64,000 nucleotides of DNA from Actinomycetes bacterium. GTDB lineage: Bacteria > Actinomycetota > Acidimicrobiia > Acidimicrobiales > Ilumatobacteraceae. Positions 1,169 through 64,000 of this stretch are shown here, piece by piece. Both the position numbers and the translations under genes were made by a program. The notes under the pieces were generated by a model. The model did not search any database. It was given only the letters and a program-made list of their open reading frames with translations, and was not told the DNA's origin. Each line of letters begins with the position of its first letter. The stretch's first letter is position 1. The DNA lies in the NCBI GenBank assembly GCA_021414085.1, contig JAIOPC010000002.1, positions 186,001-250,000 on the forward strand, written 5' to 3'.

Positions 1169-1196
1169 GGAACCGCGCTGCTTGTTGCGCGACCAG

Positions 1197-1850: not shown

Positions 1851-2070
1851 GGTTGCACCAGAGCCACCTTGGACATCGCGGTTTGATCCATACCTAGATA
1901 TGTCCGGCTAGGGCACATTCATTACAGGTTTCTGCAGATTTCTTCTTCGTCTAGTTCATCTGCACTATTGCCGCTGATGCGAATGAACCCGCCCGATCGG
2001 GAGAGCACCGCTCGAGCAATCCCCCACCGTGGGTCACGTGTGGTCGTGGTCGCTGCCCGATCAGTTGTGC

Positions 2071-3510: not shown

Positions 3511-3589
3511 ACGAACGCCCTATGCGCCGACAGGAACGGGGTCGGGCAAGGACGTCCGAAGATAACCAACACGGAGGTACTAAGGAACC

Positions 3590-4432
3590 ATGCGTATCAA
3601 CGCCAACATCGCGGCTATCAATGCCAGCCGCAACCTGACCGTCAGCAACAGCCAGCTCGGCAAGAGCCTGGAGAAGCTGTCATCGGGCTTCCGCATCAAC
3701 CGTGCTGCAGACGATGCAGCTGGTCTTGCGATCTCAGAGGGATTGCGCTCCGAGATCCGCGGTTCGGCCCAGGCGCAGCGGAACGCGCAAGACGGCATCA
3801 GCTTCATCCAGACTGCTGAAGGTGCCCTCAACGAGGTGCACTCGATGCTGCAGCGCATGCGTGAGCTTGCAGTGCAGGCAGCCAACAGCACGTCCGACGG
3901 TGTCGCCGAGCAGGCAGAAGTCGACGAACTGGTCACCGAAGTCACGGCCATCGGCCTGCGCACCCGGTTCTCGGGTATCTCGGTCTTCAACGACTTCTCC
4001 GGTGTCGGTAACGGCCTGAACTTCCAGGTCAGCGCCAACGCCGCAGCAGCCGAGCAAGTGACCGTGGCCAATGACTTGGTGCTGACCGGTGCGGCTGCGA
4101 CGGGAATGATCTCCGTCGCCCTCACCTCGGCTGACCTGACCACCAGCAACACGACGGCGCAGGCGGCGATCACCTTGATCGACACCGCCATCGGCGATGT
4201 TTCCGGTGTTCGTGGAACGCTTGGTGCGGTGCAGAACCGCCTCGAGCACACCGTCAGCAACCTCGGCGTTGCCGTCGAGAACCTGACTGCCTCGGAGAGC
4301 CGTATTCGCGACGTCGACATGGCTGCCGAGATGGTCACCTTCACCCGCAACAGCATTCTCAGCCAGGCCGGCACAGCGATGCTCGCCCAGGCAAACCAGG
4401 TGCCGCAGGGCATCCTGGCGCTGCTGCGCTGA
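3590..4432 (+). CDS. fliC: Flagellin
   Basis: MRINANIAAINASRNLTVSNSQLGKSLEKLSSGFRINRAADDAAGLAISEGLRSEIRG and C-terminal flagellin motif. Confidence 0.97.
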   Translation: MRINANIAAINASRNLTVSNSQLGKSLEKLSSGFRINRAADDAAGLAISEGLRSEIRGSAQAQRNAQDGISFIQTAEGALNEVHSMLQRMRELAVQAANSTSDGVAEQAEVDELVTEVTAIGLRTRFSGISVFNDFSGVGNGLNFQVSANAAAAEQVTVANDLVLTGAAATGMISVALTSADLTTSNTTAQAAITLIDTAIGDVSGVRGTLGAVQNRLEHTVSNLGVAVENLTASESRIRDVDMAAEMVTFTRNSILSQAGTAMLAQANQVPQGILALLR

Positions 4433-4467
4433 AAACTTGCGGTGCTCCGGTACCGCACAATGCCCAC

Positions 4468-4510
4468 GCCCTCCGTTCCACCCCCAGGAACGGAGGGCAG
4501 GGCTTTTCTT
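4468..4510 (+). terminator. Rho-independent terminator after flagellin
   Basis: Perfect 12-bp stem GCCCTCCGTTCC / GGAACGGAGGGC, 7-nt loop, followed by T-rich cttttcttg. Confidence 0.85.
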
Positions 4511-4551
4511 GTTCTCGTCCTTGAATTCTTCGCAGCTATCAGGAGGTCGTC

Positions 4552-6387
4552 GTGACTAGTGGAATCGACACCGAGTCCATCGTCACCAAGATGATGGCCA
4601 TCGAGCGCCGGCCACAGGACTTGCTGAACATTCGCGTCACCAAGACCCAGAAGGCACAGACGGCGTGGCAAGCAATCGCCGACAAGTTGACGGCGCTGAA
4701 GAGCGCATCTGATGCACTCGCCGGACTCGACACGATCTCAAAGTTGCGTTCTGTCACGTCCAGCAACACAGCAGTGATCGGCGTCCGCGCCATCGGCGCT
4801 GGCGCGAACCTGTCGTCGAACGTCGAAGTCGTCGGGCTCGCCGCCGCGAAGTCAGTGCTCGCGGGCGACGTGTTCGCTTCCGCCAGCGACGCGATCGGGG
4901 CGCGCACGCTCGACATCACCGCCTCTAGCGGCGCGACCACCACGATCACGTCCACCGACGGCACGCTTGGCGGACTCGCCGCCGCTGTCAATAACGCGGG
5001 GCTCGGCGTCAATGCCAAGGTGTTACAGACCGCGCCGGGCCAATACCAACTTTCGCTCACCGCGACATCCTCTGGCACCGCGGCATCATTCAACGCCGCC
5101 GGCACCGGTTGGACTTCGTTGACCACAGTGCGCGCCGCCGCGAACTCACAAGTAGTAGTCGACGGAGTCACCGTTACCCGTTCCACCAACGTGCTGACCG
5201 ACGTGCTCGATGGCGTCGAACTCACCCTCGTCGGCACGTCGCCCTCGCCGGTGAGCGTGACCAGCACACGCGACGACTCCGCAATCATCGCCAAGGTGAA
5301 GGGGTTGGTCGATGCGATCGGCGCTCTCGCCTCAGGGATTGGGATCGCGACGAAGACCAGCTCAGATTCGGCGCAGCGGGGACCGCTCGCCGCCGACGTG
5401 ACCGCCCGCCAGATCATGGACTCGGTACGCCGCGCTATCTCACAACCACTGACGACAGCGGGCGGCACCACCACGACCGCGAGCGCGTTAGGTATCTCGT
5501 TGACGCGCGAGGGCGCGATCACCTTTGACGCTGGCAAGTTGTCGGCGTCGCTGACCAGCGACCCCGACACGGTGATGGCTGTGCTCGGCAGCAGCGCCAA
5601 CTCCACCGCCAACGGCGTCAGCGTTGTGGGAACAACCTCGGCGGCGGCCACCGGGACGCGAGCGATCAGCGTCACCGTCGCCGCCACCAGGGCAACGTTG
5701 GCGGGCGCTGTCGTCGCCGCGCCACCAACGGGGACCGCTGTCACGATGAACTTCGTCACGCCGGGCGGCTCGTCTGCCGTGTCGTTCGCGACTGGTGCAA
5801 CAACATCACAGACCGTCGACAACCTCAACGCCGCATTGCGCTCGGCCGGCGTCAAAGTCTCCGCACTTGCGACTACCGGCGGCGCAATTGATTTGGTCTC
5901 CGAGCGCTACGGCACCGGTGAGGCCTTCACCGCCACTGGCGGCGCAATCATTGGTCTCGACGGCGCGTCGGCCGACGGTGTCGACGCTGCAGGAACGATC
6001 GACTCCGTTGCGTTCACCGCGAACGGGCGGTCGTACACGTCGGGCGGGCTGATCCTCAACATTGGAACCACCAGCGGCCAGATCGCGTCGGGTGGTGGTT
6101 CGGTGAACGGCAACGTCAGCTTCGCTGCCGGTCTCGCCAGCTCCCTCGCCGCTATCGGAGCGCAGGGCGCTACCACCGGCTCGACCGCCGCTTCCGCGAG
6201 AAGTGGTCTGCAGGACACACTCACCGACTTGCAAAAGCGGATCGCGCGCTACGACGACATCTTGAAACAACGCGAGCAGTTCATTCGGGCGCGGTTCACT
6301 TCGATGGAGTCGCTCATTCAGAAGCTGCAAGGCATGACCGCGTCGATCAGTTCGCTCACCGGCAGTTCCAGCTCACAGTCCAGTTGA
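4552..6387 (+). CDS. fliD: Flagellar hook-associated protein 2 (filament cap)
   Basis: N-terminal TSGIDTESIVTKMMAIERRPQDLL; C-terminal ...YDDILKQREQFIRARFTSMESLIQKLQGM; position after fliC. Confidence 0.93.
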   Translation: MTSGIDTESIVTKMMAIERRPQDLLNIRVTKTQKAQTAWQAIADKLTALKSASDALAGLDTISKLRSVTSSNTAVIGVRAIGAGANLSSNVEVVGLAAAKSVLAGDVFASASDAIGARTLDITASSGATTTITSTDGTLGGLAAAVNNAGLGVNAKVLQTAPGQYQLSLTATSSGTAASFNAAGTGWTSLTTVRAAANSQVVVDGVTVTRSTNVLTDVLDGVELTLVGTSPSPVSVTSTRDDSAIIAKVKGLVDAIGALASGIGIATKTSSDSAQRGPLAADVTARQIMDSVRRAISQPLTTAGGTTTTASALGISLTREGAITFDAGKLSASLTSDPDTVMAVLGSSANSTANGVSVVGTTSAAATGTRAISVTVAATRATLAGAVVAAPPTGTAVTMNFVTPGGSSAVSFATGATTSQTVDNLNAALRSAGVKVSALATTGGAIDLVSERYGTGEAFTATGGAIIGLDGASADGVDAAGTIDSVAFTANGRSYTSGGLILNIGTTSGQIASGGGSVNGNVSFAAGLASSLAAIGAQGATTGSTAASARSGLQDTLTDLQKRIARYDDILKQREQFIRARFTSMESLIQKLQGMTASISSLTGSSSSQSS

Positions 6388-6465
6388 CAGCGCTAGCCCA
6401 CACGACAAACCAAGACGACAACCCAAGACGACCGCTTCTAAGACACTCACGAGAAGGATCTCATA

Positions 6466-6858
6466 ATGTCACCATCGAACACAGGACTTGCGAACTACGC
6501 GCAGGCTTCAGCCGTCACGGCGAGCCCGCACGAAGTCGTGCGGATGGCCTTCGAGCGCATCCTCACCGCGTGTGCTCGTGCTGAAGCGGCCGAGCAGGGG
6601 CGCAACGCTTCGTGGCTGCAGACCTTCCATGATGAAACCGTTCGAGCACAAGCCATTCTCGTCGAACTCAGCGCGGGGCTCTCGTTGCAACATCCGGACA
6701 GAGAAGTAGTCGACCTGGCCGAGCGTCTGGACAGCCTCTATCGATACGTCATCACGCAACTCGCGCAGGCCAACATGCACAAGTCGAGCGGTCCGCTGCA
6801 GGCAGTACGAATGGTCGTCGACGGACTGCGCGATGCATGGGCGAGTAATCCACCGTGA
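6466..6858 (+). CDS. fliS: Flagellar export chaperone FliS
   Basis: NYAQASAVTASPHEVVRMAFERIL...; position after fliD. Confidence 0.85.
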   Translation: MSPSNTGLANYAQASAVTASPHEVVRMAFERILTACARAEAAEQGRNASWLQTFHDETVRAQAILVELSAGLSLQHPDREVVDLAERLDSLYRYVITQLAQANMHKSSGPLQAVRMVVDGLRDAWASNPP

Positions 6859-7157
6859 CCGTATGGAGCTCCTGGCTCGACACCGCCGACGCGTTACTGG
6901 GCCGAGACGACACCTCCGAAGAGCAGCTGGATGAGTTGCTTGCGGCGGGGCTGTTACTTCACCCCTCGTCCGGCGAAACAATCGACCACACGCGTATCTC
7001 GCGAGTGCTGGCAGGTCTTGCCCGGCATCAGACCGCAACAGCGACTGAGATCGGCGAGATCGTCAACAAGCGCCGTGAGTTAACGCGCACACATGTTGGT
7101 ACCGAGAGCTACTTGAATGCCGCTGCCAATGTGTCGATCAAGGCACGGGATCGCTAA
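6855..7157 (+). CDS. Small flagellar-operon protein, candidate FliT-like chaperone
   Basis: 4-nt overlap with fliS; short helical protein in the fliT position; no diagnostic motif. Confidence 0.4.
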   Translation: MTVWSSWLDTADALLGRDDTSEEQLDELLAAGLLLHPSSGETIDHTRISRVLAGLARHQTATATEIGEIVNKRRELTRTHVGTESYLNAAANVSIKARDR

Positions 7158-7232
7158 GCGGTTTCACATCAGTTCCGGCCCAAGGAGGGTCCGGTCACTC
7201 GCACGGATGCACCGACTGAGAGGTCGTCATCT

Positions 7233-7577
7233 ATGGACCCCCTGTTCTCGACCGTTGAGTACGCAATGGGTGGGCTGCAACTGCGGCTCGACACAATCGC
7301 CCACAACGTCGCCAACGTCAACACGCCGCTGTATCGCAGTCAGACCGTCAACTTCGAAGACGGGCTGACGTCGGCACTACGCGCCGGAAAGCCAGCACCG
7401 GCGACAGCGCCACAGGTGAGAGCGGGCTTTGACCTGGTGGACCACAACGGGACCAGCGTCAGTCTCGAGAATGAACTGACCACTCTCGCGAAGTCGTCGC
7501 TCGAGCGCCAGGTGATGGTGTCGAGCTTCAACTACAAGGTCGACATCCTCAAAGCCGCGGCCGGGACAGCGCGATGA
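7233..7577 (+). CDS. flgB: Flagellar basal-body rod protein FlgB
   Basis: LDTIAHNVANVNTPLYRSQTVNFED; linked to flgC. Confidence 0.92.
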   Translation: MDPLFSTVEYAMGGLQLRLDTIAHNVANVNTPLYRSQTVNFEDGLTSALRAGKPAPATAPQVRAGFDLVDHNGTSVSLENELTTLAKSSLERQVMVSSFNYKVDILKAAAGTAR

Positions 7578-7987
7578 ACCACGGACCTTTCTCCAGCCTC
7601 GACATCACCAACACGGGGCTCGGGTTCAACAAGTACTGGCTGGACACGGTTGCGCACAACATCGCGAACGTCAACACCACAACGACGCCGGGCCAGGAAC
7701 CGTTCCGGGCACGCATGGTCGTGTCCATGCCGTTAGCAACCAACACCACCCAGGGTGGAGGCGTCGCGGTCAGCGACGTCGTCAACCAAGACGGTGACCC
7801 GACGCCGATCTTCGACCCCGAGAACCCATTGGCCGACGCCCGCGGATACGTCCAAGGCGCCGTCGTCGACTTGGGTGGCCAACTTGGCGAACTCATTCTC
7901 GCCAGCCGCTCGTACCAAATGAACATGACCATGTTCAAAGAAGCCCGCGAGTCGCTACAGACGACCACCACGTTGGGTCGGGGCTAG
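7574..7987 (+). CDS. flgC: Flagellar basal-body rod protein FlgC
   Basis: LDTVAHNIANVNTTTTPGQEPFRARMV...C-terminal SYQMNMTMFKEARE. Confidence 0.92.
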   Translation: MNHGPFSSLDITNTGLGFNKYWLDTVAHNIANVNTTTTPGQEPFRARMVVSMPLATNTTQGGGVAVSDVVNQDGDPTPIFDPENPLADARGYVQGAVVDLGGQLGELILASRSYQMNMTMFKEARESLQTTTTLGRG

Positions 7988-7989
7988 TC

Positions 7990-8298
7990 ATGTCTGCACT
8001 CGGTCCGATCGGGAACATTGGTGGCGCCGGCGGCGGCATTGGATCTGTCGCGGGCAACAGGGTCGGCGCAGCACCGGCGAGTGGCTTCGGTGATGCCGTA
8101 CTCAAAGGACTCGATTCCGTCGCCGGAATGGAACGGCAAGCCGACAACCTCGTGGCCAACATGGCCGCCGGCGGCAACGTGCAGATCTCTGATGTCATGG
8201 CCGCCACGAGCAAGGCGAACCTCGGGATGTCGATCGTCAACGAGATCCGTGCACGCGGGCTTGAGGCCTACCAGTCCATCATCAACATCCAGGTCTGA
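7990..8298 (+). CDS. fliE: Flagellar hook-basal body protein FliE
   Basis: QISDVMAATSKANLGMSIVNEIRARGLEAYQSIINIQV; position flgBC-fliE-fliF. Confidence 0.92.
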   Translation: MSALGPIGNIGGAGGGIGSVAGNRVGAAPASGFGDAVLKGLDSVAGMERQADNLVANMAAGGNVQISDVMAATSKANLGMSIVNEIRARGLEAYQSIINIQV

Positions 8299-8306
8299 GG
8301 TAGTCA

Positions 8307-9926
8307 ATGAGTAAGCCGCTTGACGCACTTGGTCAGCAATGGCGTTCAGTTCCCGCCGGCTCCCGAATGATGGCGCTCATCGCCATCGTGGGTCTCGCGA
8401 TCACGGGATTCTTCATCTATCAGCAGATGAACCAGGTGGACTGGGCCGTCCTCTACGCGAACGTCGACGATGCGACCGCCTCCGACGTGCTCGCCGGTCT
8501 CGATGCGCACGGCATTGAATACAAGATCGAGGGCAACGGTTCGCGCATTCTCGTGCCTCGCGATCAGTTGGCCTCGTCGCGCGTCGCGCTCGCCGGTGAC
8601 GGCGTCACGGCCCAGGCAGTGCCAGACGGGTTCGACGAGATCTTCTCCAACCAAGGGCTCGCCAGCAGCGACTTCGAACAACGAGTGAACTACGAGCGAT
8701 CCTTGGAAGGTGAGTTGGCGCGCACGCTCCTGACGATGGAGCCTGTTGCAGGCGCCCGAGTTCAGCTGAGTCTTCCCGAACCGTCGATCTTCATCGGGTC
8801 CGGCACCGACACCGCCGAACAACCAACCGCCTCGGTGATGTTGTCATTGCGCCGCGACCTGACGGCGGCGGAAGCCGACACGATCGCCAACGTCATCGCC
8901 TCTTCCGTTGAGGGGCTGAACGCCGACCAGGTAACTATCGCCACGGCCGACGGGACGATGCTGCGCGCCGCTGGATCAGAAACCGGTGCGGCGAGTAGCA
9001 CCGGCAACCTGCAGGTGACCCGCGACTTCGAGGCCGACCTTTCCACCCGCCTCACCGAACTTGCCCGCGCGATGACCGGCCAACCGAACGCAACGGTCGA
9101 AGTGACCGCCGTGCTCGACTTCACAGAGTCGACGGTCGACAAAGAGGTAATCGACCCGGAGAAGAACGCCACCACGGCTGTGCACGAAAGCACCGAGACG
9201 TGGACCGGCAGTGGCGGAAGCGCCGGCGGCGCGAGCGGGCCCGACGGCGGTCCCACGAACGCTGGCGGCACCGACGGCACCTACGACAAGAGCGACAAGA
9301 CGACCACCTACGTCCCCGGCGATCGCACGATCACTCACTCGACGATCACAACGCCGACGGTCACTGCGCTCAGCGTTGCAGTCGTGATCCCCGTGATCAG
9401 CGACGCCACCGGCGCACAGCCGGTAGTCATCGACGAAGAGACCCTCGCTCGGGTACTCGGTACCGCCGCCGGCATCGACACCGAGCGCGGCGACGCGATC
9501 GAGGTTGCGGTTGTGCCCGCGGTGGCAACCGACACCGGCGATCTCGTCACCGATCCGACTTCGCCAGTCGCAGCACCAGCGCCGACCCCGGTGACGTTGC
9601 TTGCCGCCGCGGCGGCTGCCGGCGCCTTCCTCATGATGCTGGTAGCGATCGTCATGCGCCGCCGGCGTAAGAACCAAGGCGGCGCATACGTAGCGACCGA
9701 CTTCCCCAGCCAATCTGAGGGCAAGGCGAAGAAGGGGAAGAAGAACAAGGGCAAGTCAGATGCTCAGACCGAAATACTCGAACTGATACCGAGGATTGCT
9801 AGCGAGCGCTCGGGTCAGAAGTCGGATCGTCAAGCAGTCGACGAGATCAAGGCCGACCTAGAGCGGATGCTCGCGGAGAGTCCTGACTCGCTCGCTGCTC
9901 TGCTCAGCGGTTGGATGGCGAAGTGA
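8307..9926 (+). CDS. fliF: Flagellar M-ring protein FliF
   Basis: FIYQQMNQVDWAVLYANVDDATASDVLAGLDAHGIEYKIEGNGSRILVP; VNYERSLEGELARTL. Confidence 0.95.
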   Translation: MSKPLDALGQQWRSVPAGSRMMALIAIVGLAITGFFIYQQMNQVDWAVLYANVDDATASDVLAGLDAHGIEYKIEGNGSRILVPRDQLASSRVALAGDGVTAQAVPDGFDEIFSNQGLASSDFEQRVNYERSLEGELARTLLTMEPVAGARVQLSLPEPSIFIGSGTDTAEQPTASVMLSLRRDLTAAEADTIANVIASSVEGLNADQVTIATADGTMLRAAGSETGAASSTGNLQVTRDFEADLSTRLTELARAMTGQPNATVEVTAVLDFTESTVDKEVIDPEKNATTAVHESTETWTGSGGSAGGASGPDGGPTNAGGTDGTYDKSDKTTTYVPGDRTITHSTITTPTVTALSVAVVIPVISDATGAQPVVIDEETLARVLGTAAGIDTERGDAIEVAVVPAVATDTGDLVTDPTSPVAAPAPTPVTLLAAAAAAGAFLMMLVAIVMRRRRKNQGGAYVATDFPSQSEGKAKKGKKNKGKSDAQTEILELIPRIASERSGQKSDRQAVDEIKADLERMLAESPDSLAALLSGWMAK

Positions 9927-10972
9927 CCGGTAGCGCAGGCGTTGAAACAATCGACAGAAGCAATGCGCCCGCCCGCGCCTTTCCCGGTGCGCGCACCGTC
10001 GCCATCGTCGTCGCCGCACTCGGCGCTGAGGCTGGCGCTTCCATGCTCAGTCAGCTATCGGCTGCCGAAGCGGAGGCGGTTGTGCGTGAGGTCAAGGACA
10101 TGCCTGCGATGCCTCTTGCCCAGGTTCGTGAGGTCATGGTGCGCCTGCGCGACGAGGCGGCGGCCCAGTCGCATGCCATCGCCGGCGGTCTCGACAAGGC
10201 ACGCGAGTTGCTGCGACGCAGTCACGGCGCAGGCGCAGAGGCAATGCTCGAGCGGATAGTCGCCTCGTCGGCGGCCCTGCCGTTTGAGTTCTTGCGCGGC
10301 CGTCCTCCCGAGCACATCGTGAGTTACCTCTCCGCCGAGCATCCGCAGGTGATCGCGCTCGTGCTCGCGCACTTGCCGCTCGGCACGGCAGCGAAAGTGA
10401 TGGAAGGACTACCGACCGACCTGCGCGCTCTCGTTGCAGCGCGGTACGCGAACCTCGAGTCGACCGACCCAGAGGTTGTCGCCGACGTTGAGCGATCAAT
10501 GCTGCGCCGAGTCGGCGCCGGTGAGTCCTCAGCGGCACCCGCCCGTGGCGGCATCAAGCCACTCGCGGAGCTGTTGAACAACGTCGCCCGCGAAACCGAG
10601 AACGATGTGCTGGGCAGTCTGGAGCGACTGGACCCGGAGCTTGCCATCGCTGTTCGCGATCTGATGTTTGTCTTCGAAGACATCACACAGATCGACGATC
10701 GCGGTCTGCAGGAAGTCCTGCGCGCCGCCGACGCTCGCACGATCGCACTCGCGTTGAAGGACGCTGCCGCGCCACTGCGCGAGAAGGTCGAACGCAACCT
10801 TTCGCAACGTGCGGCTGAGGACGTCAACGAGTCCGCCTCGACGCTCGGCATGGTGCGCCGCTCTGACGTAGAAACCGCGCAGAAGCAGATCGTGGCTGGC
10901 GCGCGCAAGCTCGAACAGGAAGGCCGCATCGTGCTCGTACGCGGAGGCGGCGACGGCGGAGACTTCGTCTGA
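9923..10972 (+). CDS. fliG: Flagellar motor switch protein FliG
   Basis: EHPQVIALVLAHLPLGTAAKVMEGLP; MFVFEDITQIDDRGLQEVLR; GTG start overlapping fliF. Confidence 0.95.
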   Translation: MTGSAGVETIDRSNAPARAFPGARTVAIVVAALGAEAGASMLSQLSAAEAEAVVREVKDMPAMPLAQVREVMVRLRDEAAAQSHAIAGGLDKARELLRRSHGAGAEAMLERIVASSAALPFEFLRGRPPEHIVSYLSAEHPQVIALVLAHLPLGTAAKVMEGLPTDLRALVAARYANLESTDPEVVADVERSMLRRVGAGESSAAPARGGIKPLAELLNNVARETENDVLGSLERLDPELAIAVRDLMFVFEDITQIDDRGLQEVLRAADARTIALALKDAAAPLREKVERNLSQRAAEDVNESASTLGMVRRSDVETAQKQIVAGARKLEQEGRIVLVRGGGDGGDFV

Positions 10973-11544
10973 TGACGCGCATCTTGCAGCGCCCGTCCCT
11001 CAACGCAAACGCCGTTGCCTTGCGCGCTCCGCCGTCCTGGGATCCGATCGCGCTGTCCGCCTACGAGCAGGGTTACAGCGAAGGTGCCGGAACGATGCTC
11101 GAGAAGGGGCGGCGCGACTTACACCGCTTCGAGACCGAGATCATCGACGCGACGCAGCGCTGTCTCCACGCGGTTGAGACGGCGCGACAATTGATGGCCA
11201 GGCGCACCCTGGATATCGCCGAGCTCTTTGTAACGACGGCCTTGCGCGACATTCCGGAAGCAGGCACCGCCGGCATGCTCGTTCGACTTGGCGAAGTGTT
11301 GCGCGCGTTCGAGCCGGGACCAATCGAGTTGTCGGTAGCGACCGATCTGGTCGGCGAGCTGGAAGCAATCATGGCGACGCGTAACGACTACGCCGACCGA
11401 GTCAAGGTTGTCGACGATCCAACGCTGAAGCCCGGTGAGTTTCGGCTGCACAGCGAATGGGCGGACGCAGACGGCACGTTCGAGCGCTACATCTCAGCCG
11501 CACGTGCGGCGCTGGAAGCACACCCGGCAGACGAGTCTCGATGA
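10972..11544 (+). CDS. fliH: Flagellar assembly protein FliH-like
   Basis: Position fliG-fliH-fliI; DRVKVVDDPTLKPGEFRLHSEWADADGTFE is FliH C-terminal-like. Confidence 0.8.
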   Translation: MTRILQRPSLNANAVALRAPPSWDPIALSAYEQGYSEGAGTMLEKGRRDLHRFETEIIDATQRCLHAVETARQLMARRTLDIAELFVTTALRDIPEAGTAGMLVRLGEVLRAFEPGPIELSVATDLVGELEAIMATRNDYADRVKVVDDPTLKPGEFRLHSEWADADGTFERYISAARAALEAHPADESR

Positions 11545-12995
11545 CGACCGATAACACGCGTAAACCCGTGACGCGCCCAGGATTGGCCAAGTGGCCACCG
11601 CCGACTCGTCGACCCGTCGCGGCGGCTGCCGAGCCGGGTAGCTTCACCGGCCCCGTACTCGGTGACGGATCGCGACTCAATGATGAAGCGGCCGGAATTG
11701 CAATCGCCCTACCCGCGGCGGCGACTGTCACCGTGATCCGCGGCATGGAAGTTGGTGTGCGCGGACTGCGCCTGCAGGTCGGTACGACAATGCACGTAGA
11801 CGCGGCGGCGGGTTGCGTCGACGCCGAGGTCGTCGCCGCTGCCGACGGCGAGACTCGCCTGGCCTTGTTGGGAGAACCAGCGGGCATCAGCAGCGGCACG
11901 CGCGCACGCCCGACGCTGGGTAGTGGGCAGCCCTTGGGCGCCGGGCTGTTCGGCAGAGTGATCGATGCGCTGGGTCGCCCGATTGACGGGCTGGGATCGA
12001 TCTCTGCCAAGCGGGGACCCATCGATGGCGAGGTGCCACCCGCGTTGCGGCGACGTCGCATCACTGAGGCGATGCCCGTCGGCGTGCGCGTGATTGACGC
12101 CTTCACCACGCTTGCTCGCGGCCAACGGATGGGCCTGTTCTCGGGTTCCGGTGTCGGCAAGTCGACGCTATTGGGGATGATGGCGCGCGGAGCCGATGCC
12201 GACTGCGTCGTCATTTGTCTGGTCGGTGAACGCGGTCGTGAAGTACGCGAGTTCCTAGAGGACGATCTGGGGCCGGAGGCGGCCGCTCGGGCTGTGGTTG
12301 TCGTGGCAACCTCGGACCAGCCCGCGCTCGTGCGCGTGAGGGCACTGCACTATGCGACAGCGATTGCCGAGCACCTCGCCGATGAAGGACGCGACGTGCT
12401 CTTTCTCTGTGACTCGGTCACGCGTTTCGCCCTTGCGCAACGCGAGGTTGGCCTAGCCGCCGGCGAGCCCCCGACGGCGCGCGGTTTCACGCCTTCCGTG
12501 TTCGCCGCACTTCCGAAGTTGCTCGAAAGAACCGGGCCGCGCGAACACGGCACTGTCACTGCCATCTACACGGTGCTCGTCGAGGGCGACGACCACAACG
12601 ACCCGATCGCCGACACGGTTCGCGGCATTCTCGACGGTCACATCGTGCTCGATCGTCGCCTCGCTCACGCCGGGCGCTATCCGGCAGTTGATCCGCTGTT
12701 GTCCATCTCGCGACTGGCGAGCAAGGTTCTGGCTCCAGAGATGGTCGCGATCGCTGATCAAGCGCGGCGAGCGTTGGCCGCGGCCGAGGCAGTGCGCGAC
12801 CTCGTTGAAGTTGGCGCATACCAGCCAGGCAGCAACCCCGATGCCGATTACGGACTGGCCGTCCAGCCTGGAATTGTCGCGCTGTGTCGGCAACAGACGA
12901 ACGACGTCACACCTATCGCTGACACTTTCGCGGCCTTGGTTGATGTGCTCAACGTTGGTAGCACGGCCTTCGCCGGAGTCGCGGGAGCGACATGA
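11541..12995 (+). CDS. fliI: Flagellum-specific ATPase FliI
   Basis: Walker A GLFSGSGVGKSTLLG; CLVGERGREVREF; LFLCDSVTRFALAQREVGLAAGEPPTARGFTPSVFAALPKLLERTG. Confidence 0.97.
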   Translation: MTTDNTRKPVTRPGLAKWPPPTRRPVAAAAEPGSFTGPVLGDGSRLNDEAAGIAIALPAAATVTVIRGMEVGVRGLRLQVGTTMHVDAAAGCVDAEVVAAADGETRLALLGEPAGISSGTRARPTLGSGQPLGAGLFGRVIDALGRPIDGLGSISAKRGPIDGEVPPALRRRRITEAMPVGVRVIDAFTTLARGQRMGLFSGSGVGKSTLLGMMARGADADCVVICLVGERGREVREFLEDDLGPEAAARAVVVVATSDQPALVRVRALHYATAIAEHLADEGRDVLFLCDSVTRFALAQREVGLAAGEPPTARGFTPSVFAALPKLLERTGPREHGTVTAIYTVLVEGDDHNDPIADTVRGILDGHIVLDRRLAHAGRYPAVDPLLSISRLASKVLAPEMVAIADQARRALAAAEAVRDLVEVGAYQPGSNPDADYGLAVQPGIVALCRQQTNDVTPIADTFAALVDVLNVGSTAFAGVAGAT

Positions 12996-55692: not shown

Positions 55693-56562
55693 CTAGCCAC
55701 CAAACGCCTCGCTGATGCGCTGCGCCAACGGATAGGCCAAGAACACGATGGTGGTGACAACGAACCCCACCGTCGGCCCGGAGAGATTCGCGTTTGCTTT
55801 GTCGGCTGCGCGCTCGAGATCATCGAGCGCTTTGGCGCGCATCGCTTCCGACAGCGTCGCCACGGTTTCGCCGATCGACACGCCCTGTACACCTTGGCGT
55901 TCGATGCTGGCGGCCAGCTCGCTGATTTCGCGGACGTCGTAGTCGCGGCCGAACTCGTCGAGTGCCTCCCATACGGCGACACCTCGTTGGGGTGCCGCTG
56001 AAATGTGCTGACGCAATGTGTCGAAGGACTCACTTGCCCCGACTGCGAGAGCAAACGAGATTGCCTCTTCAACGCTTTGATCTGTGGTCAGCCCAACGGC
56101 CACGAGTTGCACGAAGTCGTTCGATGCTCGACGTATCTCGCGGCGCTGGCGGTCGATCTTGCTGGCGACATCGTTCAGCGAAACCCAACCGGCCAGCAAT
56201 GCACACGACACTGCGAAGATCGGCCAAACAGGCGACAACGCAAGCGCGCCAAGCGACATCAGTGCCGCCACTCCGGCAAGTACGGCGAACAACATCACGC
56301 CGGCCGCGACTATCACCTTTGTCACGACTGCGGCCGGTGTGAGTTGCACGATCGGCAATCCACTCCCGAAGCGCTTTGCAACCCATCGTCCGAGCCCGCC
56401 TGCCGCCACGGAGTCGGTCCACGCAGTTCTTCCGTCGGTGCCTTGCATGCGCCCACGAGCGATAGCCAACGATCGCGGTGCGCGGCGAAACGAGAACACA
56501 ACACACCAGCAGCCAGCTGCCGTGATCACGCCAACGAGTGCTCCGACCTGAAGGGGATTCAT
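55693..56562 (-). CDS. tadC: Type II secretion system F-domain protein TadC
   Basis: MNPLQVGALVGVITAAG...SFDTLRQHISAAPQRGVAVWEALDEFGRDYDVREISELAASIERQGVQGVSIGETVATLSEAMRAKALDDLERAADKANA. Confidence 0.9.
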   Translation of the reverse strand: MNPLQVGALVGVITAAGCWCVVFSFRRAPRSLAIARGRMQGTDGRTAWTDSVAAGGLGRWVAKRFGSGLPIVQLTPAAVVTKVIVAAGVMLFAVLAGVAALMSLGALALSPVWPIFAVSCALLAGWVSLNDVASKIDRQRREIRRASNDFVQLVAVGLTTDQSVEEAISFALAVGASESFDTLRQHISAAPQRGVAVWEALDEFGRDYDVREISELAASIERQGVQGVSIGETVATLSEAMRAKALDDLERAADKANANLSGPTVGFVVTTIVFLAYPLAQRISEAFGG

Positions 56563-57443
56563 TGCGTTGCCACCCGCTCGGCCGCCAGTCGATAGCGAGT
56601 CGGCGACTCGTAACGACACAGCGATCGCAGCCACAGCACACAGCCCAGCCACAGGCTGAGTGGCAACAAGAGCACGACTTGGCCAACCGCAGTGTTGTAA
56701 GGATCGAGCAGCCCACCCGCGGCGAAGCGCAGGTAAGTAACCAACAGCCCGCCAATCACCACCAGGCGTTTCATGCTCGACTGATACACGGCGCGAGTTC
56801 TGTCGATGCGCTCACGCGCTGTGACCTCGTATCGGGCTGCGGCCGCGAGGGAGTTCACTGTGCCGTACAGCCGACCGGCGCCAGTCGAACCACCAATCAC
56901 CAAGCAGATCGCAGCAATCGCTGCGTCGGCGGTGGGATGTGCAAGCTCCTCCGCCAGATCCGCCAGGGCATTCTCGGTCCGGTAACCCTGTCGACGACGC
57001 TGCGTGAAGTGCTGTAGCGCTCCGGTGATTGCCGCCGGCGGGCGAAGTGCCACTTGCTCGAGCGCCTCTTCAGCACCGACAGCGGATCCGCGCAGCGTGT
57101 CGCGTAAGTCTTCCAACCACTTTGCGATTCCCTCGATACGCCGACGTTCGTCGTCGGCTCGCTGATCGTGAAGCAGGCGCTTCCAGGAGAAGACCATCGC
57201 CGCGACCAACAACGAGAGCATGAGCCAACGAGTCGCAAGCAGCACAAGGAAGCCGGTTGCTGTGGCGAGAAGTACGCGATTGCCGTTGATGCTGAATGCG
57301 CTCGACGCGACTCTGTTTGTGGCTGCGAGTGAAATTGAGCGTGGCGTCTCGGTAGCTGCACGGCCCACCGCAAAGGTTGCGGCGCCGAGCAGCAAGCACA
57401 CCGCCAGCGCAATCGCTGTTGGAGGCACGACTGTGGCGAGCAC
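56559..57443 (-). CDS. tadB: Type II secretion system F-domain protein TadB
   Basis: IEGIAKWLEDLRDTLRGSAVGAEEALEQVALRPPAAITGALQHFTQRRRQGYRTENALADLAEELAHPTADAAIAAI. Confidence 0.88.
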   Translation of the reverse strand: MLATVVPPTAIALAVCLLLGAATFAVGRAATETPRSISLAATNRVASSAFSINGNRVLLATATGFLVLLATRWLMLSLLVAAMVFSWKRLLHDQRADDERRRIEGIAKWLEDLRDTLRGSAVGAEEALEQVALRPPAAITGALQHFTQRRRQGYRTENALADLAEELAHPTADAAIAAICLVIGGSTGAGRLYGTVNSLAAAARYEVTARERIDRTRAVYQSSMKRLVVIGGLLVTYLRFAAGGLLDPYNTAVGQVVLLLPLSLWLGCVLWLRSLCRYESPTRYRLAAERVATQ

Positions 57444-57446
57444 AGC

Positions 57447-58140
57447 TCAGACTCCAACCAACGCGCAATCGAGACCCGCGCGAAGGGGTCGGTGAGTATC
57501 GCCTGCGCCGTGCCACCAGTCGGTAGTGAAGCCAACGTCGGCTGCGAGCAGGCGCTCAAGCATCGCCCTCTGTGGTTCGCTTGCTGGACGCGCCCGACCA
57601 TCGACACTGTCGGGTCGGCTGGAGAAGAGTCGATGCATGATGAATCGTGCGCCGTCTTCCTCCACCGACGGCGCAACAATCTCCGTCACGTAACGCCCCG
57701 TGCGGTTGTTGCCGGTGACGTGCACCACAAGATCGACGCTGCGATACACCTGCCAGCGCGCCATACGCAGCTCGATCTGATGGTGGTACGCGATGAGTTC
57801 GGCCAATCGCTCGATTCCATCCTTCGCCGAGCCGCCGTGCACCGTCGCCATCGCGCCTTGCCCGATCGACATCGCCTGCACCAGCGCGCCGCCTTCAGCG
57901 CCGCGGACCTCGCCGACGACGATCCAATCGGCACGCGTGCGCAAGGCCGGGACCATCATGTCGTGACAGGAGATGCCAACCCCGTCGGACGTGCTCGGCA
58001 CGCGCGCTTGGTAGGCGTGCACGAACCGATGGCGACCCATGCTCGCCAAGTTCAATTCGAAATCCGTCTCGACCGTGACGATGACATCATCGATGTCGAC
58101 TTCGGCGACCAACGAACGTAGAAGCGTCGTCTTCCCGACA
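57447..58140 (-). pseudogene. tadA: 3' part of tadA/cpaF pilus ATPase, interrupted at the Walker A motif by the mobile element
   Basis: VGKTTLLRSLVAEVDIDDVIVTVETDFELNLASMGRHR...IVVGEVRGAEGGALVQAMSIGQGAMATVHGGSAKDGIERLAELI; sequence upstream of VGKTT is not TadA and no start exists. Confidence 0.88.
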
Positions 58141-58200
58141 TTGTATTTAGACACCCGCTCAGACTAGAATCCCTTATGAATCAGCCCGAAAGGCCACAAC

Positions 58201-59616
58201 TTGTCGTTCCTCGAACTTCCCAGGCGGGCTGCCATCTATTGCCGCATCTCCCAGGATCGCTCCGACGAACGGCTTGGCGTTGAACGGCAGGAAACCGAAT
58301 GCCGCGCTCTTGCGGACCGCAACGGTTGGGAAGTTATCCGAACGTTTGTCGATGACAACATCTCGGCGTACTCAGGGAAGACCCGACCACAGTTCGAGTT
58401 GATGTTGGCTGACATCGCGGCTGACGAGATCGATCTGGTTGTTGCGTGGCACCCCGACAGGCTCTACCGAGGATTCACTGAATTCCTTCGACTGTCGAAG
58501 CTGATGAAGCTGCATGGGGCCACCGTGCACACGGTGATGGCTGGCGAGGTTGATCTCAGCACGGCGGCGGGCCAGATGATGGCGGAGATCATGACATCGT
58601 TCGCCCAATACGAGTCAAAGCAAAAGGCCGACAGAATCCGTTCCAAACACGCGCAGTCGGCGCGCGCAGGGCTGGCACACGGTGGGCCGAGGCCATTTGG
58701 CTATGAGCGAGTCCAGGGGAAGCCCGGCACGCTCGCCATCGTTGAGAGTGAGGCGGAGGTCATCCGTGAGGCCGCCAACCGCGTCCTAGCAGGCGAATCC
58801 GTCAGGGCGATCTCGATTGACTTCACGAATCGCGGTATCGCGACTGTTCGAGGCGGTCGGTGGCAGTTGAAGGCTCTATCCGACATCCTCGCGTCGCCGA
58901 GAATCGCGGGCCTAAGACCTGCCGGTGGCGAAGGCATCGCCGCCGCGACGTGGGACCCGATTCTTGACCGGCAGACGTGGGAACGGGTACACGCGATGGT
59001 TACGCACGGAACCGTTGGACGCAGACCGCGAACCAACGTGCTCAGCGGCTTCCTGTGGTGTGGGAGATGCGGCCAGCGGATGTTCGGAGTAGCAAAGACT
59101 TACCGCGGCAAGCGCAGACGCCAGTACGAGTGCCGTCGTGATGGCCAGGGCCTAGGCGCGTGTGCCGCGCTAAGCGTTGAGGCTGGACCACTTGAGTCAT
59201 ACGTCAGCGGATTGGTCTTCGGTGCCGCCGATGGCGCTGACCTCGGGCACCTTCGACGTTCTCGACGGGTTGGCGATCAAGCCGCGTTGGCATCAAGGCT
59301 GGAGGAGGACGAACAGCTACTCAGTGACCTGGCGAAAGACTTCGGTAACCGAGTAATCAGTCGCCCTGAATGGTTCGCTGCGCGGGTGCCTGTTGAAGAA
59401 CGCATCGATGAGAGTCGCCGCGGCCTGGCTCGACTCGCACCAAATGATCTCATCCCCGCGGACCTTGCTGACGTAGCGGGTCGTTGGGAAGCCCTGACTT
59501 TCGACCAGCGCCGCGCTGTGATTGCGCTGTTCATCGGCAAAATCTTCATCGATCCGGCCACGCACAAGGGGGGTCGCTTCTCTCCGGTGAGAGTACGCGT
59601 GGAATGGGCAGCGTGA
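58201..59616 (+). CDS. Large serine recombinase/integrase
   Basis: RAAIYCRISQDRSDERLGVERQETECRALADRNGW...AWHPDRLYRGFTEFLRL...MMAEIMTSFAQYESKQKADRIR; zinc ribbon CGRCGQRMFGVAKTYRGKRRRQYECRRDGQGLGAC; TTG start with GAAAGG upstream. Confidence 0.95.
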   Translation: MSFLELPRRAAIYCRISQDRSDERLGVERQETECRALADRNGWEVIRTFVDDNISAYSGKTRPQFELMLADIAADEIDLVVAWHPDRLYRGFTEFLRLSKLMKLHGATVHTVMAGEVDLSTAAGQMMAEIMTSFAQYESKQKADRIRSKHAQSARAGLAHGGPRPFGYERVQGKPGTLAIVESEAEVIREAANRVLAGESVRAISIDFTNRGIATVRGGRWQLKALSDILASPRIAGLRPAGGEGIAAATWDPILDRQTWERVHAMVTHGTVGRRPRTNVLSGFLWCGRCGQRMFGVAKTYRGKRRRQYECRRDGQGLGACAALSVEAGPLESYVSGLVFGAADGADLGHLRRSRRVGDQAALASRLEEDEQLLSDLAKDFGNRVISRPEWFAARVPVEERIDESRRGLARLAPNDLIPADLADVAGRWEALTFDQRRAVIALFIGKIFIDPATHKGGRFSPVRVRVEWAA

Positions 59617-59723
59617 GCACGCCACCACCCTGTGTGGGTTGGACCCTCGACCTCAAAAAACCTGTCAAGTGATTTCTCAAAATCCAATAAGACCTGGTCA
59701 GAGGCTGTTTTGGGTGCTTGAGG

Positions 59724-59745
59724 CCTGTCAAGAGTCCTTGTCAGG
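59724..59745. repeat. Inverted repeat CCTGTCAAG-AGTC-CTTGTCAGG
   Basis: 9-bp arms with one mismatch; half-site CCTGTCAAG also at 59661-59669. Confidence 0.75.
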
Positions 59746-60137
59746 AATCGCGATTCGCGCATCGTCTCGCAGAAGGGTGGGTGTAGAGCATCCTTCGTGG
59801 ACGCCACTAGCCGCGATGAGAGACGGAGCGATGAACTCCCCATCGCGCGGCTTGTTGATGATAGGACCCCGTCCTCACCGTCGAGCGAGACTCAGACCGA
59901 TGGCGTAGCGAGTGAAGTACGGAACGGCTCTTCGCGCACGCCAGTACCGACCTTGCGGCTCAAAGCGTCGTCGGGTGATTCTCACCAACGACTGATTGAA
60001 CAGGGTCGCCTTGACGCACGATCACTGCGTCAAGTCGCTGGCTTGGATTCCCCTTCAACTGACTTGTTGGTTCTTGCTCGTCTCGACAGGCTCATCAGTG
60101 GCCCATCCGCTCGGGAGCGAACCGTGTGAGAACGAGA

Positions 60138-60170
60138 AGGCCGGGGCACTGCGTTAACAGTCCCCGGCCT
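60138..60170. repeat. Strong GC hairpin upstream of Rep-like gene (terminator or replication-origin-like)
   Basis: AGGCCGGGGcACT-gcgttaac-AGTCCCCGGCCT; arms match with a single C bulge; no T-tract. Confidence 0.8.
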
Positions 60171-60189
60171 GGTCGTCACGGAGTGACCC

Positions 60190-61428
60190 ATGACCGACAG
60201 AGGCCAGAGTAACCCACCTCGACAATCCTGCGCTGCCGTAACGCGCGCGCCAGACGTAAGCCAACCGCGTCGCGACTTCGTCGAGGTGGCTGACACAGCC
60301 GGGCCGGACGTAGCGGTTGTTGACCCGCAGTCGCAGCCCTACCCCGGCGTAACTCGCGGGACTAGCAGGTCTTGGAATGCATCAAACATTGATGATCACC
60401 TTTCGTGTCCGGCCACCTCGTCCCTCGTTGGCATTGACACGATTCGGGTGCGTGGCGCAGTGAGTGGGGTCGCACCTCGTGACGTGTGGGGAAGCGCTCA
60501 CGACATTCATCGCGGGTGGAGGGCGGGAACGGCATACACGGTCTACCTGCATGACGATGTCCACCTAAAGGTTCAGTTCGGGCAAGGTGAGGCTGCTCAT
60601 CTCGCAACGGCATCGTTCGAGTTCTGTGTCCCGCGGGTGGCGAACGGCGACAACCTCCACCCCGTTGACCTACCGACCGCGCTATCGCAGGTCGAGGCGA
60701 TGTATCAACGTGCGAGGCGATACGTGAACTGGAGCGTTCCTTCATCGCACCTCGATGTAATGCGACTCGACCTCGCGCTTAACTGCTTGTCTCCTTCTCC
60801 AACGATCACCTCGACTTGGATCGAGGCGATCTCGCGACTGAGAGGGCCATACCACCCAAAGGTCGAGCGGTACTCCAACGTTGATGGCTACACGAGTCTC
60901 CGTCGAGGTTCACCGAAACGTTGGTTCCTCACCGCTTACGACAAGGCCGAGGAACTGCTTAGCAAGGCAAACAGCACCAATGACCCGATCAGACGACAGA
61001 CCTTCCTCGACTTAAGCATCGCTGCCACTGGGGTACTCAGGCTGGAACTACAGCTTCGGCGACCTGTTCTCGTCGATAGGGGCATCAGGACTCTTACGGA
61101 CCTCACCCCATCGATACTGCAGCAGTTCCATCGCCGCTACGTTGAACAGATGCAGTTCCATCGCGAAGTCGGCGGCATGACCAAAGTGAAATCCATCGCC
61201 GACACCGTTGACGCCACAGAACGGCTTCCGCTTGCGACGTTGATTGGCAGCCTCTGGCTCGAAGCGCAAGGCGTCAGTGTCGAACCAGACCCACGCACGA
61301 AGCTCAAGTACCGACGGATGGCAGAGCAGTACGACCTCTCCGTCGCAGACTTCGTGAACTTCGCCACGACGCAAACCATCCGCCTCGATTACGACAACGC
61401 AAGGCTGATCGTTCGAGACGCGACCTAA
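60190..61428 (+). CDS. Candidate phage/plasmid replication initiator (filamentous phage gpII/X-like)
   Basis: VGIDTIRVRG...; MRLDLALNCLS; YTSLRRGSPKRWFLTAYDKAEELL; GVLRLELQLRRPVLVDRGIRTLTDL; start codon uncertain. Confidence 0.5.
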   Translation: MTDRGQSNPPRQSCAAVTRAPDVSQPRRDFVEVADTAGPDVAVVDPQSQPYPGVTRGTSRSWNASNIDDHLSCPATSSLVGIDTIRVRGAVSGVAPRDVWGSAHDIHRGWRAGTAYTVYLHDDVHLKVQFGQGEAAHLATASFEFCVPRVANGDNLHPVDLPTALSQVEAMYQRARRYVNWSVPSSHLDVMRLDLALNCLSPSPTITSTWIEAISRLRGPYHPKVERYSNVDGYTSLRRGSPKRWFLTAYDKAEELLSKANSTNDPIRRQTFLDLSIAATGVLRLELQLRRPVLVDRGIRTLTDLTPSILQQFHRRYVEQMQFHREVGGMTKVKSIADTVDATERLPLATLIGSLWLEAQGVSVEPDPRTKLKYRRMAEQYDLSVADFVNFATTQTIRLDYDNARLIVRDAT

Positions 61429-61704
61429 CGCTGGCAATCGCGCATGCAACAAGATGGATTCATCTTTGGTTTCCGTTCCGATTGCTATCGCGACCTCACG
61501 CCGTAATCTCGTTTCCCAAATCGATGCAGTCGGGTGGCTCGCAGTGTTACGCGCCGTTCTAATCGCCCGCAGAGGCCCGATCCTGAGCTTCTAGCAACCG
61601 CGTCCGCACAACGAGCACAACCCGTCGGCGTGAGGCACACCGAGCCGTAGACGGTTGACAGAATTCAAGATGAATCCATGTTGGATCGATGCGTGGCTGC
61701 CTTG

Positions 61705-62118
61705 TCATGGGCGTGTCGCGTTCACGTCGGTCCATTTGCGACCTACCGAAGGTCGGCCACGATCATCAGCCACGTATCCCGCTGACTCCATAAGCTGCTC
61801 GGCTCGCCGCACCATCTCGGGTTCGCGGCGCAGTAGCGCAGGTTCGGCGTTGGCGTGTCGAGTAAACGCAGTGAACCCGCCTCGGAAGTCTCGGGCACCA
61901 GCGAGCTTGAAGAAGACCCTGACGTAAGCATCGAACGTGTCCTCTCGTCCATGCTTGTAGCGACTTCGGTAGTGCTCGACCGACTGCGGCGTGTCGAGTG
62001 ATCGAGGAATACTTCCGCCACCGCCAACTCGCCGAACGACAGGCTCATGCTTTGCGTTGCAGATCGTGCAAGTCCCCAGAAGTAGACCGTGGATGCAATC
62101 TGCATCTGGATCGCCCAT
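61705..62118 (-). CDS. Small hypothetical protein with CxHGx5CxxC zinc-binding-like motif
   Basis: MGDPDADCIHGLLLGTCTICNAKHEPVVRRVGGGG...; coherent composition and ATG start. Confidence 0.6.
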   Translation of the reverse strand: MGDPDADCIHGLLLGTCTICNAKHEPVVRRVGGGGSIPRSLDTPQSVEHYRSRYKHGREDTFDAYVRVFFKLAGARDFRGGFTAFTRHANAEPALLRREPEMVRRAEQLMESAGYVADDRGRPSVGRKWTDVNATRP

Positions 62119-62330
62119 GAGGCCATCATGCCAGCAAGCTGTTGGGCTACGCGCCAGATAGCGGTCTCCGAACCATCCTCGACCTCAGCGTTATGTGATG
62201 GGCAAGCGAGACGTGGCGAGCGCGACCTGACCGCAATTAGACCTGCGAACGCGGCACGACTTCGACGCGACGAAGGTGAGCACGCACAGCATCCTGATCG
62301 AATGAGACCCTCGTTCTCTGCTGTGGTGGT

Positions 62331-62360
62331 CTCCTGTGGTCTCCTGTGGTCTCCTGTGGT
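62331..62360 (+). repeat. 10-bp direct repeats CTCCTGTGGT, 3 perfect copies plus flanking partial copies
   Basis: ctgtggtggt ctcctgtggt ctcctgtggt ctcctgtggt cacc read directly. Confidence 0.95.
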
Positions 62361-62644
62361 CACCTTGTAGAAGTTCGCGCGGATGAGTCAAGACCTCTTG
62401 CCAATCCATACCCACGAATACCGCCAACCTTGCAGACGCGCCACAGTGACCTGTGGTCCCGAAGAAAAATCGACGTTTGGTGTGGTGTGTTTTCTCACCC
62501 GCGACGAGCATCGACGCGATGGCCTGGAGGTCGCATTACGAAGAAAGCAGCATGACCTATACCTACGGATGCTCGACTGCCCGCTGAGCGAACTGTCGGA
62601 CTTGGGATGGGAGCGGTACCGGCTCGCCGAAATTGAGTGGTTTC

Positions 62645-62800
62645 CTATTCCCCAGGGGCTTCGTCTGCCAGTCCAATGAGTATGTACCCCCACGATCCTC
62701 TTGGATACTCGCTGATTGCGAACTCCGCGCAAGCCGCACACAGTGGCCAGCCTCCCAGCATGCCGTCGGCGGGAACGCCCCTACACAAGTCGCATCGCAT
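62645..62800 (-). CDS. Small 51-aa protein with two CxxC motifs (zinc-ribbon-like), not in supplied ORF track
   Basis: Manual translation: MRCDLCRGVPADGMLGGWPLCAACAEFAISEYPRGSWGYILIGLADEAPGE*. Confidence 0.5.
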   Translation of the reverse strand: MRCDLCRGVPADGMLGGWPLCAACAEFAISEYPRGSWGYILIGLADEAPGE

Positions 62801-62922
62801 ATTGACTAGACGAAACAATCGTCGAACTATGACGCCGAGGCGCAGGTCTATGGTGCACCTTGTGTCGGTGCTCCCGCGGACGGTCAGCGCAGCGCTCGAC
62901 CAGGCCGGAGTAATGTGCCGCG

Positions 62923-63849
62923 ATGGCGACGCGGGGCAGCTATGGCATAGCCGAGTGGTACGGGCGAGACATCACGCTCATGTCGGTGGAGGAGCGCAAA
63001 GCAGTTGCAATCGAAGCAGTTTCCCATCACAGCCGTGAGAAGTCGAAACGCATCTGTCCGTTCGCGCTGAAGGAAACCCTTTGCTCGAAGAAGGGTGGTG
63101 TGTGCTCGATCCGCCCCTACACAGCGGAGAAAGGTGAGGTCGAGGCGCAGTTGCCTATCGTCACGGTCTGTCCGATGCGTTTCCTGGAGAACGCCGACCT
63201 GTTGCGATGGGTCGCGAAAACCATGCTGGGCACCTCTGATGACGTGGTCGCTGTGAAGGAAACGCCGTTCCTCAAACGGGCTGGGGCAAGCGTGGGCGAC
63301 GAGGAGAGCGCGAAAGCCGGTCGAATCGATTGGCTTCTTGTGGACACGGCATCGACGCCGCGTCGTATGGCCGCATTGGAAACGCAGAGTCTGTACTTCT
63401 CAGGCGGCAACATGCGACACGACTTCGACATGTATCTCACGTCTGATGTGCTCTTCAAACCTCCGAAGGCCCGTCGGCCCGACTATCGCTCTGGTGGCCC
63501 CAAGCGGTTGTCGCCGCAACTCGCGGTCAAAGTCCCGCTCCTGCGCGCGTGGGGAATCAAGATGGCTGTGATGGTCGATGACTTCTTCTTCAACGAAATG
63601 GCGACGATGCCTGAGATCACTGGAACGAATGACGCGGACAAGCTGCTGACCGCGGAGATCGTGTGGTTCGTCGCGAAGTACGAGGGGGCACACCTAGTGC
63701 CTAGCCGAGTCGCCTATTCGAGGCTCGATGACTCGGTGATTGCGTTGAACGCTGCGGTTCCGATGTCGGCCACGGACTTTGCTGCGAAGCTGGACATGGA
63801 TATTGCCGCGCCCGGTAACCAAGGCAAGAAGGTGTTCAATCTTTCGTGA
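62923..63849 (+). CDS. NotI-family restriction endonuclease
   Basis: Four-Cys pattern ICPF...ETLC...GGVC...VCPMRF and PD-(D/E)xK-like GRIDWLLVD...MAALETQSLYFSGG, parallel to NotI CPF/C/GVC/CPNR and FDW...GVLEIQTMDFHGS. Confidence 0.8.
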   Translation: MATRGSYGIAEWYGRDITLMSVEERKAVAIEAVSHHSREKSKRICPFALKETLCSKKGGVCSIRPYTAEKGEVEAQLPIVTVCPMRFLENADLLRWVAKTMLGTSDDVVAVKETPFLKRAGASVGDEESAKAGRIDWLLVDTASTPRRMAALETQSLYFSGGNMRHDFDMYLTSDVLFKPPKARRPDYRSGGPKRLSPQLAVKVPLLRAWGIKMAVMVDDFFFNEMATMPEITGTNDADKLLTAEIVWFVAKYEGAHLVPSRVAYSRLDDSVIALNAAVPMSATDFAAKLDMDIAAPGNQGKKVFNLS

Positions 63850-64000
63850 GAATGAGTTCACGATGAACTTCGTGATGCGTTGATTTCATCGGAACGGTGG
63901 AGATTGCAAACCGATGCTTGGCCGCCAGCTTCCTGACCTCGGGACTGTCGTCGTAAGTCATCATGACCGGACCCGCGCACTTCGCCGCAGCGGCAAACAG
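63836..64000 (-). CDS. C-terminal end of a D12-class (Dam-like) adenine DNA methyltransferase, truncated by window
   Basis: Manual translation: LFAAAAKCAGPVMMTYDDSPEVRKLAAKHRFAISTVPMKSTHHEVHRELILTKD*; (M)TYD(D)SPE...PMK(S/N)THH...EL(I)L tail. Confidence 0.65.
   Translation of the reverse strand: MFAAAAKCAGPVMMTYDDSPEVRKLAAKHRFAISTVPMKSTHHEVHRELILTKD

Follow-up and report, generated by a model that had tools for sequence, protein, structure and literature searches.

An 11.2-kb mobile element splits a Tad-pilus motor gene at its catalytic lysine codon, where mobile DNA repeatedly lands

A mobile element of 11.2 kb cuts a Tad-pilus motor gene (tadA) at the codon for the catalytic ATP-binding lysine, as both of its junctions confirm. 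In other bacteria, a separate prophage family is integrated at the same codon, so mobile DNA repeatedly lands at the most conserved spot of tadA.

The split gene

We analyzed a window of 64,000 nucleotides (G000:C13:186001-250000) from a 3.2-Mb draft genome of 18 contigs. On the minus strand, a TadA/CpaF-type ATPase begins abruptly at VGKTTLLRSL (ORF 58154-57447). The frame 58154-57447 (-) reads MSKYN-VGKTTLLRSLVAEVDIDD..., with a stop and foreign codons upstream, where the start of the P-loop is expected. From such features and an adjoining large serine recombinase (LSR), the earlier note proposed that an element had integrated in the Walker A codons of tadA, and both junctions bear this out. 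It also predicted that the 5' part of tadA would lie to the right of the window. When the contig is read on rightward, this part is found at the far end of the element. The LSR, which the note placed about 60 nt beyond the break, starts at 58201, or 68 nt from the inferred crossover. The main features are listed here, in window numbering unless contig C13 is named.

55693..56652, minus strand: TadC-like platform gene, with a T2SSF domain match slightly under the cut-off
56559..57443, minus strand: TadB-like gene for the pilus platform, named by its position downstream of tadA
57447..58133, minus strand: tadA 3' part, beginning with AAG, the Walker A lysine codon (from reading the frame)
58132..58133, minus strand: dinucleotide AA of the left junction (attL), the probable crossover point, within the core GGGAA (from the core in register and the dyad centre)
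58134..58163, no strand: left half of the reconstructed attP, with arm GAGCGGGTGTCT and inner GTCGGG (in the tadA sense)
C13:244134-255382, no strand: whole integrated element, 11,249 bp (58134..64000 in the window, and on to 69382 in window numbering)
58201..59616, plus strand: LSR, 471 aa, with Resolvase, Recombinase, and zinc-ribbon domains (Pfam; PHROG integrase family phrog_95)
60190..61428, plus strand: replication protein, 412 aa, Phage_CRI/G2P-like (weak match, above the cut-off)
61705..62118, minus strand: hypothetical protein, 137 aa, element cargo, no family match
62923..63849, plus strand: NotI-like restriction endonuclease, 308 aa (Pfam NotI, E = 7e-43)
63836..64000, minus strand: 3' end of a D12-class adenine-specific DNA methyltransferase, 345 aa (family matches; whole gene at C13:249836-250873)
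C13:255381-255382: AA of the right junction (attR)
C13:255383-256045, minus strand: tadA 5' part, beyond the window (69383-70045 in window numbering)

The two parts of tadA are on the same strand, one at each end of the element. The 5' part ends with VVCGRMGSG, which is followed by NPTLS (foreign codons) and a stop. Joining the flanks computationally gives an intact, unbroken tadA of 449 codons that contains GRMGSGKTTLLRSL. The split gene has a T2SS-E type ATPase domain (PF00437) and matches CpaF by sequence in PDB; TadA/TrbB/VirB11 profiles match both parts, below their equivalog cut-offs. The 3' part is 90% identical to the intact gene of genome G011.

The note asked whether related genomes carry an intact tadA, and they do: the gene is unbroken in all 14 of the other genomes from the same genus. 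In the 13 of these where the junction was read directly, it is VVCGRMGSGKTTLLR, without a break. A complete tadA elsewhere in the locus would have spoken against the proposal, and the nearest other copy is a paralog, 38% identical, in a different locus: a second, small Tad-like locus on contig C10 (L311:5151-7934). The P-loop DNA of this intact paralog, TCGGGCAAGACA, differs from attB.

The other Tad genes are open on either side of the split gene. We identified CpaB-like, CpaE/TadZ-like, TadB-like, TadC-like, Flp-, and TadE-like genes, several of which are named by position only. The locus thus combines a T2SS-E type ATPase with CpaB- and CpaE-like neighbors, as in a Tad operon. Compared to the nearest relative, dN/dS is just 0.024 and 0.035 for the two halves of tadA (0.055-0.13 compared to other relatives), so both halves were under constraint until recently, and they look recently functional. 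Since dS is near saturation, these values give no date for the insertion.

Attachment sites and the crossover

The earlier note located attB in the GKTT-encoding segment of tadA, with a short core near 58125-58140 that would be shared with the far junction. The core common to both junctions, in register, is GGGAA. If the ends of the element are joined, they give the attP sequence GAGCGGGTGTCTAAATACAATGTCGGG-AA-CCCGACGCTCTCTTAAGACACCCGCTC. Centered on AA, its two sides form an inverted repeat with 22 matches in 28 positions. With any neighboring center, at most 11 positions match. Among 200,000 random pairs of half-sites, the maximum was 19 of 28 positions, and none reached 22, so the dyad is not due to chance. 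The attachment sites therefore resemble those of serine integrases, with inverted repeats in attP around a central dinucleotide and a short identity with attB. In the Walker A lysine codon, AAG, this AA makes up positions one and two. Because the dyad symmetry centers there, it narrows the shared core to this dinucleotide, and the crossover is probably at the AA of the lysine codon. Both the proposed attB and its core thus hold up, with a sharper position.

The recombinase

The LSR is the first gene of the element and adjoins the left junction. Its reading frame has no stops; the Resolvase, Recombinase, and zinc-ribbon domains typical of a serine integrase are all in this one protein; and the phrog_95 integrase match spans nearly its whole length. 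The catalytic serine motif Y-x-R-x-S is conserved, with Y4, R6, and S8 invariant in our alignment (A1).

With an alignment-based search, we collected relatives of the LSR in the order, GTDB genomes, and IMG/VR. A single-sequence search with the LSR found no match in genome contigs and one relative (36% identity) in viral contigs. Phage and plasmid records contained no LSR with over 60% identity to it, and just 1 of the 14 other genomes of the genus has a relative (37% identity). The nearer relatives (about 40% identity; L063, L064, and L043) have a different target. Other relatives, whose targets we identified by eye, are at other conserved genes: a yifB-like gene (L048 and L053) or a P450-like gene (L044). 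The yifB-like genes are truncated near Walker B, and the P450-like gene is truncated at the I-helix.

The element and its cargo

The GC content of the element is somewhat lower than that of its flanks. Besides the proteins listed above, it encodes an HTH regulator and several proteins of no recognized family. The gene for the NotI-like endonuclease is tail to tail with the gene for the D12-class adenine methylase (62923-64000, and on to C13:250873), and the two might make up a single restriction-modification pair. Among the element proteins that we scanned, we recognized no structural proteins of tailed phages and found no match to a relaxase or to FtsK/TraB-like proteins, which would mark an ICE or AICE. 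As for inoviruses, there is a weak G2P-like domain and no match to Zot, and small coat genes could escape recognition. The element is best called an integrative, plasmid-like restriction island.

The same genome has a second island (L309, G000:C10:99000-118900), with a resolvase-like gene and large type I restriction-like genes. It shares short stretches of DNA, about 70% identical, with the element in tadA.

Probable loss of the motor

The earlier note argued that the insertion would switch off assembly of the Tad pilus. In CpaF, mutating the Walker A lysine (K287A) eliminates ATPase activity (PMC12019362), so a TadA that is cut at the equivalent lysine cannot work. We strongly infer that this Tad motor is lost while the element is integrated. 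That part of the claim stands; the loss of piliation itself would be an expected consequence. The TadA paralog on C10 might substitute for the split TadA, at least in part, or might not.

The same codon in a distant LSR clade

The note also suggested that attB would give the element a target in many hosts, and a distant clade of LSRs does use the site. Six prophage records from this one clade (L182, L199, L213, L172, L245, and L254) each have a TadA-family gene that starts with GKTT or GKTS, at a distance of about 80-110 nt from the LSR. The junction DNA is TCGGG-AA-GACG, with the same codon and the same AA as in the window. Unintegrated members of the clade have the corresponding attP: their sequence is TTCGGG-AA-CCC, with a dyad centered on the same AA. 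The two TadA-family genes of this clade that we scanned match TIGR03819 (TadA family). In two of the records (L213:8600-9120 and L172:9600-10060), the 3' fragment of tadA is cut again after TGHEGG or TGHAGG, with other sequence beyond, a sign that tadA may contain a second attachment site.

The LSRs of the six records are 30-33% identical to the window's LSR and form a clade of their own, with full support. The two groups that target Walker A do not come together in the tree, so it does not support a single origin of this choice of target. The lysine codon may have been adopted twice, or it may have been kept from a distant ancestor while intermediate lineages switched targets; the tree is compatible with both.

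More broadly, among the 45 LSR clusters with enough flanking sequence, 5 have a TadA-type fragment within 400 nt upstream of the LSR (these loci were gathered by relatedness, so the counts are not a random survey). Nearly all of the TadA-type matches in 2.85 Mb of LSR loci are at the boundaries of elements, and different LSR clusters break TadA-type genes at different positions. We found two further cases by eye: L046, at an EIMVN motif, and L144, with both parts of the gene about 10 kb apart. The L144 element (1034-11664) spans about 10 kb and has TadA-type gene parts at both ends and an LSR at one; the split is not at Walker A.

How the insertion probably arose

We are highly confident that the LSR catalyzed integration of the 11,249-bp element into an attB in the Walker A segment of tadA, with loss of the motor and possible excision as part of this explanation. 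It is based on both junctions, the attP dyad, the frame of the empty site, the intact relatives, and the second LSR clade at the site. The LSR would recombine attP of the element with attB, and strands would be exchanged at the AA of the lysine codon AAG. After integration, attL would lie next to the recombinase, and attR at the opposite end. The integrated element would come between the N-terminal and ATPase domains of TadA, leaving a Tad system without a motor. With a putative directionality factor, the LSR could also excise the element and restore tadA; we identified no candidate for such a factor.

Since the draft assembly has 18 contigs, the split might instead be an assembly artefact, or else the element might be an old, dead remnant. 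Either is very improbable, as the two junctions together yield both a symmetric attP and a perfect empty site, the LSR has no stops, and dN/dS is low for both halves of tadA. We rejected both readings because of the junction symmetry and dN/dS.

Why tadA?

Given integration by the LSR, the DNA that encodes Walker A might merely be well conserved in many hosts, with the loss of Tad as a tolerated side effect. We lean slightly towards this reading: there are precedents in PMC10083194, and relatives of the LSR occupy conserved motifs of genes other than tadA (yifB-like and P450). However, different LSR clusters strike TadA-type genes at several positions, which indicates that the gene, and not only the motif, is the target. 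Perhaps breaking tadA selfishly stops DNA uptake, so that the element escapes removal by transformation. This would add a reason to the integration explanation and would not replace it. We consider it possible but doubtful. The Tad pili of actinobacteria can serve in DNA uptake, as they do in Micrococcus luteus (PMC6916266), and elements recurrently break uptake genes: insertions in comK, comFA, comYC, and comM have been argued to let elements escape removal by transformation (PMC4774983). Competence genes are enriched among LSR targets (PMC10083194), and the 5 of 45 clusters that abut TadA-type fragments do so at differing positions in the gene. On the other hand, we saw no sign that this organism is transformable; the loci are not a random sample; and with yifB-like and P450 genes also among the targets of the LSR's relatives, the choice of tadA may come down to conservation alone. 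Our broader proposal is similarly tentative: TadA-family motors could be a preferred, convergent target of actinobacterial LSRs, whose breakage would block uptake by Tad pili and thereby shield the elements from removal, as an actinobacterial counterpart to the targeting of comK and comM.

The earlier note also raised a regulated switch, by analogy to the comK prophage of Listeria, in which conditional excision would restore tadA and pilus assembly and the element would then integrate again. Excision would restore tadA exactly in frame, both halves are under strong constraint, and the rest of the Tad operon is open, yet all three are equally expected of a recent, ordinary insertion. Furthermore, no directionality factor was identified, and tadA is intact in all of the relatives. 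We think such a switch is unlikely.

Relation to known systems

That LSRs integrate in conserved genes is established. For example, in PMC10083194 (Durrant et al.), a magnesium-chelatase-type gene is the target of 12.4% of predicted site-specific LSRs. As in those yifB/magnesium chelatase elements, an LSR element splits a conserved ATPase gene at a fixed site, and one target gene is common to distant LSRs. Here the target is the TadA/CpaF motor, at its Walker A lysine codon; the main text of that study does not mention pilus or secretion genes. Like the A118-type comK prophages of Listeria and the elements in competence genes (PMC4774983), our element disrupts a gene for an uptake or surface machine, and precise excision would restore it. 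In contrast to the A118-type prophages, which have regulated excision, we have only the restored frame, and our element is small and plasmid-like, an island rather than a complete prophage. In Streptomyces, too, one attB serves both phages and a small LSR mobile element (phiJoe and the SCO2603 elements, PMC5311408), but that attB is near the 3' end of a radical-SAM gene and has a GG core. The broken gene belongs to the same family as the CpaF/TadA motor ATPases (PMC12019362; PDB 9e24 and 8rkd), and the break falls at the counterpart of the lysine K287. In the open literature that we searched (with incomplete coverage, and excluding supplements), we found no description of LSR insertion at Walker A of tadA/cpaF, and this recurrent target appears to be unreported.

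Our results define a precise and recurrent attB, GGG-AA-GACGACG, at the TadA Walker A lysine codon, and they give attB and a reconstructed attP for an uncharacterized LSR. They suggest that Tad pili belong among the uptake and surface machines known to be broken by mobile elements. The targeting of Tad pili would allow tests in Actinobacteria of the idea that elements disarm transformation.
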